The position numbers and the translations under genes are program-made. Shown in pieces: positions 2,798 to 21,332 of a stretch of 64,000 bases of DNA. The notes under the pieces are model-generated. The model saw only the letters and a list, made by a program, of their open reading frames with translations. It did no database searches and was not told the origin of the DNA. The DNA is taken from the NCBI GenBank assembly GCA_002355455.1, contig AP017375.1, positions 1,054,001 through 1,118,000 on the forward strand. Direction: 5' to 3'. The stretch comes from Stanieria sp. NIES-3757. Its GTDB lineage: Bacteria > Cyanobacteriota > Cyanobacteriia > Cyanobacteriales > Xenococcaceae. Numbering within the stretch: the first letter of the stretch is position 1; every line of letters begins with the position of its first letter.

Positions 2798-3226
2798 TTA
2801 ATAATGGGGGCGAATGCCATAATGACGATAACGCCAATAGTCTTTCATGATGCGATCGTGATCGAAACACAGAGAAGTCGGAATTTCCCAGGAGTGAAAG
2901 ATACCGATATTTTTGGCATCATCGGCTGCTTGAGGTTGTCCAGTCGCCTTAGCAATAAAGACAATGGCGAGAGTATGTTGACGAGGATCGCGGTTTGGTT
3001 CGGAGTAGACTTGAAACTGTTCGACTAATTCTACATCTAAACTTACTTCTTCTTTGGCTTCTCTAATGGCTGCGGTTTCGGCTGACTCGCCATAATCGAT
3101 AAAACCTCCTGGAATTGCCCAACCAAAAGGAGTATTTTTTCTTTCAATTAGAACAATCGGTCGCTCAGAGCGATCGCTTAATTCAATAATGATATCTACT
3201 GTAGGTGCAGGATTACGATGAGTCAC
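2798..3226 (-). CDS. Nudix hydrolase
   Basis: A 142-residue Nudix protein. The Nudix box spans about residues 41-63: GFIDYGES, then seven residues on REAKEE, with the metal-binding glutamates present. The usual glycine after EE is replaced (EEVSL). Nudix enzymes cleave nucleoside diphosphates linked to another moiety; the substrate here is unknown, with ADP-ribose or 8-oxo-nucleotides among possibilities. It lies 12 bases upstream of ridA on the same strand. The pairing suggests a small metabolite-housekeeping unit, which is inference only. The ATG at 3226 gives a normal N-terminus just before the first beta strand. Confidence 0.9.
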
Positions 3227-19433: not shown

Positions 19434-19518
19434 AGATGTTGTACCAACCTAAACCAATATCTTAATTTACTTGAAAAGCTTACCACTACCATCAATAAAA
19501 TGGTATAAAGATAGAAAT

Positions 19519-19592
19519 GGCAATGGAGCTTGCCGAAACCGCCCTTTGTTATTGAGTTTTTTATAATACTTAAGAGGCTGATAGCTCCTACT
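19519..19592 (+). promoter_or_regulatory. fluoride riboswitch (crcB motif)
   Basis: The RNA reads GGCAATGGAGCTTGCC, then GAAACCGCCC, a variable loop, and AGAGGCTGATAGCTCCTACT. P1 is GGCA (19519-19522) with TGCC. The pseudoknot pairs GGAGCT (19524-19529) with AGCTCC. The other helix is GCC-CTT with AAG-GGC, one A bulged, closed by a 24-base AT loop. The AAACCGCC and GGCTGAT...CCTAC blocks are the invariant crcB-motif elements. A further hairpin (CTTCCG at 19593-19598 with CGGAAAG at 19607-19613) follows and may be part of the expression platform; it has no T-run. The motif sits 100 bases before the antiporter start. Fluoride binding normally turns on the downstream gene. Confidence 0.88.
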
Positions 19593-19691
19593 CTTCCGAC
19601 TTGTAGCGGAAAGGTAGGTTCATAGATGCCCTTAATTAAACTTTCTGTTGCAAGTCACGTTATTCAATCGATTCATCTTTAACGTAGCGTG

Positions 19692-21332
19692 ATGTTAGCA
19701 AGTATTATTTTGATTTTACTAATCGGTTTTTTTGTCGGGCAAATTGCTCGACGACTGAAAGTTCCTGCCTTGGTAGGTATGGTACTAGTTGGTATTCTGT
19801 TAGGTTCCCAAGTAGCGAAGGTTCTTAGTTCAGATGTTCTAGATGCTGCCGATTCTTTCCGTACTATTGCCGTGATGGTAATTTTGATGAAAGCAGGATT
19901 AGGACTTGATCGCGAAAAATTGGCTCAACAGGGAACTGTAGCGTTGCGCTTAGGTTTTTTACCTGCTGCTTGCGAAGCGATCGCTATTGCTATTGCTGCT
20001 ATCTGGTTATTCCAATTTAATTTTTGGACTGGATTGCTATTAGGCTGCATTATTGGGGCAGAATCACCTGCGGTAATTGTACCAGGGATGCTGCGCTTAA
20101 AAAGTTTGGGTTGGGGAGTCCAAAAAGGAATTCCTGATGCGATTTTAACAGGGAGCGCACTTTCTGACGTGCTGCTTTTGTTGGTGTTTAGTCTACTGCT
20201 GGCTTTTTTATCCCAGGAAGCGACGACAGGTATTACTGTCTTAGGAATAATTACTCTTAGTCCTTTGCAGTTATTACCATTTCAAGTCATCATCCAAATG
20301 GTTTTGGGGGTACTCTTGGGATGGGTAACCGCTCAAATACTAGTATTACTGCTAGCCAAACAAAATTGGACTCAAACGACAGTTCAGGATTCTTTAGTGG
20401 CTGCTAGCTTTGCTTTATTGTTAGTAGTAATAGCGGAAAATTTTCCTGTTTTTTCTGGCTATTTAGCTGTCATGGCAACAGGATTTTTCTTGATTGAGTT
20501 AGACACACCTTTAGCAAGACGTTTGCGAAATGGCTTTGACAATTTGTGGACAATTGCTGAAATTATTTTGTTTGTGCTGTTGGGAGCAAGTATTCAACTC
20601 AATGTTTTAGGCGATACTTTATTGATTGGTTTACTAGTGTTGATAATCGGAACACTAATTGGTAGATCTTTAGGTTGGTACCTTTCCACCCTTGGTAGTA
20701 ACTGGACTTGGAAAGAACGTTTATTTTTACTACCAGGAAATTCAGCTAAGGCAACGGTACAAGCAGCCATTGGGGCGATTCCATTGACTCAAGGTATTTC
20801 AGGAGGAGACACAATTTTAGCGATCGCAGCCCTGTCAATTTTGGTTACAGCACCTTTAGGCGCTTGGGCAATTCCAACTTTTGCTCCCAAACTGCTTGAA
20901 AAAGGTGAGGTCGATCCGACTAAAGTTTCGATTAATCGGCGTATTATTCTTTTAGCTGCTGTAGACACTTCTTCCCTATCAACTCAAGTTTTGACCAAAG
21001 CAGCAGAATTAGCTCGTCGCAGTAATGGTGAAGTATTGGTACTGCACGTGATTCGAGTCAATGATCCCCAAGGAGTTAAACGTTTGCAGGAGCAAACCAA
21101 ACGAATTTTAGCCGACATTCGCCATCAATTTATGACAACCTTCGGATCAGTGCCAGAAGAAATTGTTCTTACCGCACAAAAGTATGAAGTTACTGAAATT
21201 GTCATCGGTAAACGTGGACATCGCCCGTTTGATCAAGTTTTAGTAGGTTCGGTTTCTCAATCTGTTTTGGAGATGAGTCAGTTACCCGTTTTAGTGGTTG
21301 AAGATGAGCAAATTACTTTGAATGTTGACTAA
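19692..21332 (+). CDS. CPA-type cation/proton antiporter fused to a universal stress domain, fluoride-riboswitch controlled
   Basis: The ATG at 19692 follows a GTG at 19689; 546 residues result. Residues 1-400 are an about 12-span Na+/H+ exchanger domain (for example ARRLKVPALVGMVLVGILLGS, GCIIGAESPAVIVPG, LPGNSAKATVQAAIGAIPLT). Residues 405-546 are a UspA domain: ILLAAVDTSS, LARRSNGEVLVLHV, then IVIGKRGHRPFDQVLVGSVSQSVL with the G-x2-G-x9-GS nucleotide-binding pattern. Antiporter genes are a known class of fluoride-riboswitch targets, where they probably help fluoride or ion/pH homeostasis. Whether this protein moves fluoride itself is inference. The Usp domain may couple transport to ATP or cyclic-nucleotide status. 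Confidence 0.9.
   Translation: MLASIILILLIGFFVGQIARRLKVPALVGMVLVGILLGSQVAKVLSSDVLDAADSFRTIAVMVILMKAGLGLDREKLAQQGTVALRLGFLPAACEAIAIAIAAIWLFQFNFWTGLLLGCIIGAESPAVIVPGMLRLKSLGWGVQKGIPDAILTGSALSDVLLLLVFSLLLAFLSQEATTGITVLGIITLSPLQLLPFQVIIQMVLGVLLGWVTAQILVLLLAKQNWTQTTVQDSLVAASFALLLVVIAENFPVFSGYLAVMATGFFLIELDTPLARRLRNGFDNLWTIAEIILFVLLGASIQLNVLGDTLLIGLLVLIIGTLIGRSLGWYLSTLGSNWTWKERLFLLPGNSAKATVQAAIGAIPLTQGISGGDTILAIAALSILVTAPLGAWAIPTFAPKLLEKGEVDPTKVSINRRIILLAAVDTSSLSTQVLTKAAELARRSNGEVLVLHVIRVNDPQGVKRLQEQTKRILADIRHQFMTTFGSVPEEIVLTAQKYEVTEIVIGKRGHRPFDQVLVGSVSQSVLEMSQLPVLVVEDEQITLNVD

Follow-up and report, generated by a model that had tools for sequence, protein, structure and literature searches.

A fluoride riboswitch with a candidate three-helix relay leader precedes an NHA-family antiporter–Usp gene in cyanobacteria

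A fluoride riboswitch ahead of an antiporter–Usp gene

We analysed a 64-kb stretch of the genome of the cyanobacterium Stanieria sp. NIES-3757 (contig AP017375.1, positions 1,054,001–1,118,000 of the forward strand; hereafter the window, with positions counted from its first base), in which a fluoride riboswitch aptamer precedes a gene for a cation/proton antiporter (CPA) fused to a C-terminal universal stress protein (Usp) domain (Table 1). When the whole window was scanned against Rfam with cmscan, the fluoride riboswitch model RF01734 (crcB motif; gathering score, 34 bits) gave the sole match above the gathering score (45.1 bits, E = 2.8e-9, full model 1–64), and no second match to this model at E ≤0.001 was found across the 5.46-Mb genome. 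Direct reading of the sequence located both P1 (19519–19522 with 19531–19534) and the GGAGCT/AGCTCC pseudoknot, and 23 core aptamer columns were invariant in an alignment of 24 leaders. A crcB motif with P1 and a pseudoknot, placed before a CPA antiporter with a Usp domain, had been proposed in an original prediction made from the sequence alone, and these elements were recovered: the Na_H_Exchanger domain (residues 12–391, 109 bits) and the Usp domain (residues 421–537, 75.8 bits against a cut-off of 24) both exceeded their Pfam cut-offs. The predicted spacing of about 100 bases also agrees with the 94 bases between the aptamer end and the ATG, whereas the motif had been taken to begin at 19519 and the Rfam match starts 9 bases earlier. 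The open reading frame (ORF) could alternatively start at an in-frame GTG (19689).

Table 1 Positions of the riboswitch, leader helices and antiporter–Usp gene in the window
Feature	Positions	Strand	Basis
Fluoride riboswitch aptamer, RF01734	19510–19597	+	cmscan
Aptamer pseudoknot 5′ strand GGAGCT (partner AGCTCC, 19583–19588)	19525–19530	+	Sequence reading
Stem A hairpin (19587–19598 with 19607–19618)	19587–19618	+	Pairing in 37 leaders; apo-like fold of the window leader
Helix B 5′ strand, overlapping the stem A 3′ strand	19598–19613	+	16 consecutive pairs with 19641–19656; covariation
Helix B 3′ strand	19641–19656	+	Pairing in the window; covariation in 37 leaders; folding
Helix C 5′ strand, sharing 3 bases with the end of helix B	19654–19663	+	Folding; relay score; aligned pair counts
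Helix C 3′ strand, reaching the first two start-codon bases	19684–19693	+	Relay score; folding
Putative NHA-family cation/proton antiporter with C-terminal Usp domain, 546 aa	19692–21332	+	ORF; Pfam; NHA2 as best solved relative
Na_H_Exchanger membrane domain	19722–20861	+	Pfam
Predicted ion-site residues E124, S158 and D159	20061–20063, 20163–20165 and 20166–20168	+	Residue read-out over 105 loci
Usp domain with the G-2x-G-9x-G-S stretch GKRGHRPFDQVLVGS	20949–21299	+	Pfam, 75.8 bits; MJ0577 alignment

Antiporter family and ion site

Among solved structures, the best relative of the antiporter is mammalian NHA2 (SLC9B2; 7p1i, E = 1.6e-33; 7b4l, E = 1.9e-32), with 4czb (MjNhaP1 by title) far behind (E = 2.4e-10), and bison NHA2 was also the first structural match of a structure model (predicted local distance difference test score (pLDDT), 74; predicted template modelling score (pTM), 0.62). 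The protein gave nothing above the cut-offs of NCBIfam and matched neither PF02537 (CrcB) nor CLC-F in Pfam. We assign it to the NHA (SLC9B) family, in which mammalian NHA2 stands closest. Within the phylum this family has a sharp boundary: none of the 31 matches at E ≤1e-15 in 146 genomes falls below 60% identity to the window protein, and the second-best match within the window's own genome is 29% identical.

In CPA proteins, a conserved motif comprises four residues in the unwound transmembrane helix (TM) 4, X6-D7 in TM5 and R/K8 in TM10 (PMC6181914, available part), and the ion site of bison NHA2 is described as D277, D278 and the V243 backbone (PMC8850199, available part). The structure model is of moderate confidence and low at residues 125–154, and the ion site was read from sequence alignment instead: NHA2 D277, D278 and V243 align to S158, D159 and E124 of the window antiporter. 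Of 105 loci in which a segment exceeds 50% identity (non-independent, with some strains repeated), S158 and E124 were read in 104, the exception being L034, whose riboswitch-led antiporter has lost a large internal segment in frame (332-aa ORF; possibly an assembly fault). At the position of D159, 98 loci have D, 6 have N and 1 is unread; E95 is E in 105/105, and R325 and K353 are R and K in 104/105. The window protein has equivalents of NHA2 E214, D278, R431 and K459, all four of which are conserved in nearly all loci, but the cyanobacterial proteins differ from NHA2 in having Ser for D277, Glu for V243 and an added Usp domain. The cyanobacterial branch accordingly lacks the two-aspartate motif of the NHA2 type and the A-V-S-P of TM4, showing AESP/SD in place of AVSP/DD. 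We rejected this swap as a mark of fluoride specificity: four relatives from outside the cyanobacteria (Ilyobacter, Acetoanaerobium, Peptoclostridium and Cetobacterium) are also linked to the riboswitch and retain V and D at both places, so that the change marks the cyanobacterial branch, not fluoride control.

Distribution within Cyanobacteriota

A survey of 292 genomes of the phylum, with filters strict enough to miss weak matches, found RF01734 over the cut-off in 32 genomes, at 33 sites. The next gene is the NHA–Usp antiporter at 21 sites, an antiporter remnant at 2, CLC-F at 2, CrcB at 5 and another CPA antiporter at 3. All 25 sites in the window's class have either the antiporter (21), a remnant of it followed by an exporter (2) or a leader of the same kind running straight to CLC-F (2); the remaining 8 lie in other classes. 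In 5 of the 21 antiporters the match includes one stop, which we take as the natural end given open frames of 537–558 aa. Six more sites fall below the cut-off, of which one precedes the internally deleted antiporter of L034 and five look like chance. The antiporter itself is present in 49 of the 292 genomes at E 1e-60, and among 80 close relatives from named genomes, checked with an aptamer model built from the 24 leaders, 41 have the aptamer directly upstream. A search for further antiporter–Usp fusions behind crcB motifs in cyanobacteria, suggested beforehand, found the same arrangement across Cyanobacteriota; the fluoride module proposed as unusual stands as an arrangement, but as a lineage trait and not as a one-off.

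Outside the class, three sites (L011, L026 and L027) have the fluoride riboswitch before a different CPA-type antiporter, as judged by eye, with T-D in TM5 of L011 and L026, so fluoride riboswitches may have recruited antiporters from at least two CPA branches.

Relatives on plasmids and in other phyla

Relatives were also sampled by protein, not by riboswitch. A search of a plasmid collection matched 797 records, in 12 of which one place covered at least 80% of the query: seven cyanobacterial records (including five Picosynechococcus strains) and those of Ilyobacter, Acetoanaerobium, Peptoclostridium and two Cetobacterium. RF01734 lies upstream, over its cut-off, in all 12 (L128–L139) and in the single match from a phage collection (L140), although these 13 records are a small sample with near-copies, representing about 7 distinct lineages, from a plasmid collection that is not representative. 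The three non-cyanobacterial antiporters scanned in Pfam are shorter (396–404 aa) and have no Usp domain; that of Peptoclostridium also has NHA2 as its best solved relative (E = 5.3e-45), with a CBS-domain gene between its riboswitch and the antiporter. One scan of viral contigs with the Peptoclostridium protein gave no relative.

On a tree of 103 antiporter domains (built by a quick method, with long branches flagged), the riboswitch label requires at least 14 changes, 7 of them forced by well-supported branches. An Okeania–Trichodesmium–Hydrocoleum clade of 12 rows (L069, L075, L076, L079, L083, L085, L094–L096, L099, L101 and L104) has the antiporter with no riboswitch detected, L099 offering only 121 upstream bases. 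These are marine genera, and constant seawater fluoride could be the cause of the loss in this clade. Picosynechococcus, though also in salt water, retains the riboswitch.

Four methanotroph rows form one clade (support, 100) inside the cyanobacteria. Because they keep the leader sequence in 4/4 rows and the aptamer in 3/4, the tree indicates that the whole riboswitch–leader–antiporter unit was transferred into methanotrophs. In the fourth (L056, upstream of base 3001), the platform sequence is kept with no aptamer detected.

Exporters around the antiporter

Among the 21 riboswitch–antiporter genomes, a close CLC-F occurs in 4 (G068, G099, G129 and G278), each time just downstream of the antiporter, and a PF02537 match in 5 (G024, G085, G174, G177 and G286), just downstream in G024, G177 and G286, with no place listed for that of G085. 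Twelve of the 21, the window's genome included, have neither. At two loci (L005 and L007), the riboswitch leads straight to CLC-F, and the CLC of L007 matches a solved CLC fluoride/proton antiporter at E 1e-61. Remnants occur as well: in G203 (L010) a broken antiporter is followed by CLC-F, and G174 (L031) has a second riboswitch with its leader, behind which come about 20 antiporter codons and two CrcB-like ORFs. These placements show the antiporter sitting with, before or instead of the exporters, and we read them as exchange in place with CLC-F and CrcB or joining to them in operons. CLC-F and CrcB/Fluc thus resemble the antiporter in following leaders of this kind in some cyanobacteria (L005 and L007; L031 after the remnant), but belong to other protein families, and neither adjoins the window gene.

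In the window's genome, PF02537 has no match and the riboswitch-linked CLC-F query none at E 1e-40. Four CLC proteins are present, the best being 27% identical to that query, and the CLC at L042 matches a solved CLC-F at E 2.2e-16 against 3.8e-14 for ClcA; it is not clearly of the chloride type, so the antiporter may not be the sole fluoride gene of this genome.

A conserved module between aptamer and start codon

The window aptamer resembles the RF01734 motif in its P1, second stem and pseudoknot and in exceeding the curated cut-off. The cyanobacterial leaders differ from that motif in adding a downstream module of about 100 nt, with three overlapping helices, that ends at the start codon. 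We compared 66 leaders (63 distinct leaders together with L005, L007 and L021; leaders with no detected aptamer, such as L056, were excluded), in which the distance from the CTCCTAC of the aptamer to the start codon has a median of 98 nt (range, 83–161). In aligned leaders this interval is filled with conserved sequence, and its three helices form a chain in which each shares bases with the next. Hairpin A overlaps the aptamer at its 3′ end, whose CCTAC enters the 5′ strand of stem A. The loop and 3′ strand of A supply one side of helix B, the other strand of which lies further downstream; the end of this downstream strand pairs in turn with the start region as helix C.

The helices could be aligned in 37 of the 66 leaders, the others being different sequence groups or aligning poorly. 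Helix B is paired in 91.6% of cells against at most 47.0% in slid versions. In 27 of its cells both sides have changed, compared with 9.6 in shuffles, and its covariation score is 0.334 against 0.197 (0/500 shuffles as high in either case). Helix C is paired in 84.3% of cells (slid, ≤56.9%), with a covariation score of 0.220 against 0.178 (2/500 shuffles as high), and stem A in 88.3% (slid, ≤56.1%), its count of pairs changed on both sides being the only one of its covariation measures to stand out (3/500 shuffles). In the window, helix B runs for 16 consecutive pairs into the 3′ strand of stem A.

Groups of quite different sequence keep the same logic. In a second lineage (for example, L007 and L012), the stem A 3′-strand element GGGAGAGU pairs with ACUCUCC; in L021, GGGAG pairs with CUCCC; and in divergent leader groups UGACUCU, UCCUG or UAACUCC pairs with a purine-rich stretch before the start. 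Each leader was given a relay score for A, B and C helices that overlap in turn, and 47 of the 66 leaders ranked in the top 5% against 100 dinucleotide shuffles. An 18-codon ORF (19626–19682) overlaps helices B and C; it was set aside as a leader-peptide switch, having no counterpart by eye in the aligned leaders.

The Usp domain

The ATP-binding-type Usp motif is G-2x-G-9x-G-S/T, and GKRGHRPFDQVLVGS in the window's Usp domain aligns to the ATP-binding-type stretch of MJ0577 (titled ATP-binding domain), the G-2x-G-9x-G-S stretch being degraded in some orthologues (for example, L112). In other proteins Usp and CBS domains bind nucleotides, and pairing with a nucleotide sensor may recur among NHA-family antiporters (Usp here, CBS in Peptoclostridium). 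The cyanobacterial antiporters NhaS5 and NhaS2 are listed as putative receptors of cyclic di-AMP (c-di-AMP) in the available part of PMC10117731. The Usp domain probably tunes transport through binding of a nucleotide, either ATP or c-di-AMP.

A Usp gene behind a fluoride riboswitch has a precedent in Enterobacter cloacae FRM, in which a separate uspA gene in the operon ppaC-uspA-eno-gpmA-crcB-orf5249 is induced about 120-fold by fluoride (PMC5533749, available part). That operon as described differs from the window in that its Usp is separate and no antiporter is listed, whereas the Usp of the window is fused to the antiporter.

Proposed switching mode and role

We folded each of the 66 leaders with CUCCUAC either free or blocked, the latter representing an engaged aptamer, in a model that omits the aptamer itself and Mg2+. 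With CUCCUAC blocked, the modelled start region became more open by over 0.05 in 33 leaders and less open by over 0.05 in 3, with a mean change in openness of +0.062 against −0.001 for shuffles (Wilcoxon p = 3.6e-7, from related sequences). With CUCCUAC free, the window leader folds into stem A and a 10-pair helix C; with CUCCUAC blocked, it forms the 16-pair helix B and a 7-pair helix C, freeing 19691–19693, which include the first two bases of the ATG. A consensus scan found no terminator-like site on the + strand at 19434–19720, and a run of at least five T follows stem A in 5 of the 66 leaders. Because the start region opens in folding, no terminator-like site is found and T runs are rare, we infer that the leader is an ON switch with a platform of the translational type.

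In the mechanism that we propose, CUCCUAC at the aptamer 3′ end would, without fluoride, join hairpin A, leaving the helix B 3′ strand free to pair with the start region as helix C and keeping translation low. Fluoride would fold the aptamer and hold CUCCUAC there, so that hairpin A could not form fully; helix B would then form, helix C would be shortened, the start region would open and translation would rise. Entry of HF into the cell and its dissociation would create the need for antiport, and the product would most likely exchange H+ against a monovalent cation, restoring pH and cation balance, with the Usp domain probably adjusting this exchange. We consider it likely that the window encodes a fluoride-inducible antiporter mRNA of this kind, with a relay leader, an NHA antiporter product and tuning by Usp.

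Several observations weigh against this proposal. The leaders are related, so the shuffle ranks and the Wilcoxon p value are not independent evidence. Stem A has no covariation excess (score of 0.089 against 0.098 shuffled, reached by 460 of 500 shuffles), helix C has non-pairing cells (10/37 at one pair) and two registers, and in the main lineage helix B lies mostly in the loop of A. The relay score falls outside the best 5% in 19/66 leaders, and in the window the automatic relay passed over stem A and chose a 4-bp helix in its place. The change in openness is at most 0.05 in 30/66 leaders and the modelled opening is small in the window (0.43 to 0.52). In the protein, the transport aspartate D159 reads N in 6/105 loci. 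Finally, 28 of the 49 antiporter genomes have no RF01734 match over the cut-off and 39 of the 80 close relatives no detected aptamer (two of the 39 not being fully readable: L099, with its short upstream sequence, and L090, with a run of N), so fluoride control is not obligatory.

Two other modes of regulation have to be weighed against the translational relay. In one, stem A and helix B would form together: downstream pairing by the loop of A would make a second pseudoknot, a rigid platform coupled to the aptamer by stacking. This fits the main lineage, in which helix B (columns 23–33) falls mostly within the 8-nt loop of stem A (columns 24–31), but the 16-pair helix B of the window extends into the 3′ strand of A, and in L007 and L012 helix B pairs with that strand itself. 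As B there uses the 3′ strand of A, the two cannot both stand at full length, and we regard a pseudoknot platform as a plausible but unlikely arrangement. Control by transcription termination, either intrinsic or dependent on Rho, with hairpin A as terminator stem and the aptamer as antiterminator, we hold to be improbable. Stem A does overlap the aptamer 3′ end in the way of the terminators of known transcriptional fluoride riboswitches (PMC13273304, available part), and Rho-type control would leave no testable sequence mark; the lack of a terminator-like site on the + strand at 19434–19720, the scarcity of T runs after stem A and a conserved helix C beside the start codon, which would have no role, all speak against termination. 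Termination assays in vitro with E. coli RNA polymerase also found that 323 of 1,901 fluoride riboswitches worked (PMC13273304, available part).

As for the product, a role in H+/cation homeostasis under fluoride stress is likely for the antiporter. The window pump and its distant bacterial relatives sit behind a fluoride riboswitch, which suggests that this NHA-like family, made up of bacterial relatives of human NHA2, contributes to fluoride tolerance. An ordinary salt or pH antiporter, with the riboswitch as a relic or minor input in some strains, would account for the 39 of 80 relatives with no detected aptamer, including the 12 Okeania–Trichodesmium–Hydrocoleum rows, and for the aptamer-less platform of the methanotroph L056. 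All of the distant family members sampled have the riboswitch, however, helix B covaries and the unit apparently moved with its leader into methanotrophs, which makes a relic a poor prospect. The antiporter might instead handle fluoride itself, by F−/H+ exchange or similar, as a third kind of exporter beside CrcB/Fluc and CLC-F. The family–riboswitch link in 13/13 protein-sampled records, the exchange in place with CLC-F (L005, L007 and L010) and CrcB (L031), the 12/21 genomes with neither PF02537 nor close CLC-F and the altered cyanobacterial ion site (AESP/SD for AVSP/DD) would fit such a function. CPA members with tested transport carry cations, however. NHA2 is described as one of these (PMC8850199, available part). 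Moreover, the riboswitch-linked relatives from Bacillota and Fusobacteriota keep the cation-type AVSP/DD, so the ion-site change does not track fluoride control; joint operons with exporters fit a helper role equally well; and the CLC at L042, slightly nearer to the solved CLC-F, may be another exporter in the window's genome. Fluoride transport by the antiporter is, in our estimate, more doubtful still than a relic riboswitch. A broader proposal, under which the bacterial NHA family would be fluoride-defence transporters at root, a third class interchangeable with CrcB and CLC-F that possibly moves fluoride and that was rebuilt in cyanobacteria (AESP/SD and a nucleotide-sensing Usp) under a relay-type translational riboswitch, remains speculative and has little probability.

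Relation to known fluoride regulons

Control of Na+/H+ antiporters by fluoride riboswitches, named in the original prediction, is already published, with a role in pH homeostasis, and these antiporters are given as the next most common riboswitch-linked class after exporters (PMC11139923, citing Baker 2012; available part). The window gene shares gene class and switch with those antiporters, and differs from what is described there in its assigned NHA/SLC9B type, its C-terminal Usp domain and the altered cyanobacterial ion site. A published full-length covariation model of fluoride riboswitches was built from terminator-type platforms, unlike the cyanobacterial leader, and the main text of that paper contains no occurrence of 'cyanobacter' or 'antiporter' (PMC13273304, available part). 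Among the literature matches listed, which leave subscription journals mostly uncovered, no title or abstract dealt with an NHA–riboswitch link, a Usp fusion under the switch or a three-helix leader. Apparently new are therefore the NHA/SLC9B assignment with its family-level link to the riboswitch, the conserved three-helix leader and the predicted in-place exchange with CLC-F and CrcB. The NHA link found by protein sampling, together with the exchange with exporters, makes the role of the antiporter in fluoride defence a testable question. In a riboswitch class best known for terminators, the three-helix leader stands as a candidate for long-range relay control of translation. A copy of this leader lies on plasmid pAQ7 of the laboratory strain Picosynechococcus PCC 7002.

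Neighbouring genes and minor observations

In the window, two Uma2-type genes (Pfam) lie upstream of the antiporter gene, and 70 bases downstream of it an ORF reads, by eye, as an asparaginyl-tRNA synthetase. L077 has a second aptamer-like match (1798–1880; 39 bits with the in-house model R1) some 1 kb upstream of the first, and the two small ORFs in the intervening stretch look by eye like a toxin–antitoxin pair. The enterobacterial plasmid matches among those listed cover residues 254–418 or less and were set aside as not relevant; many such plasmids carry a short C-terminal NHA-like antiporter stretch, and in one record (L127:6917–7465) a 182-aa NHA-like ORF lies beside rmtB1, near blaNDM-1. 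In [Synechococcus] sp. NIES-970, a c-di-AMP riboswitch (L135:3130–3293) lies just 3′ of the antiporter, before an ABC-type transport permease gene.

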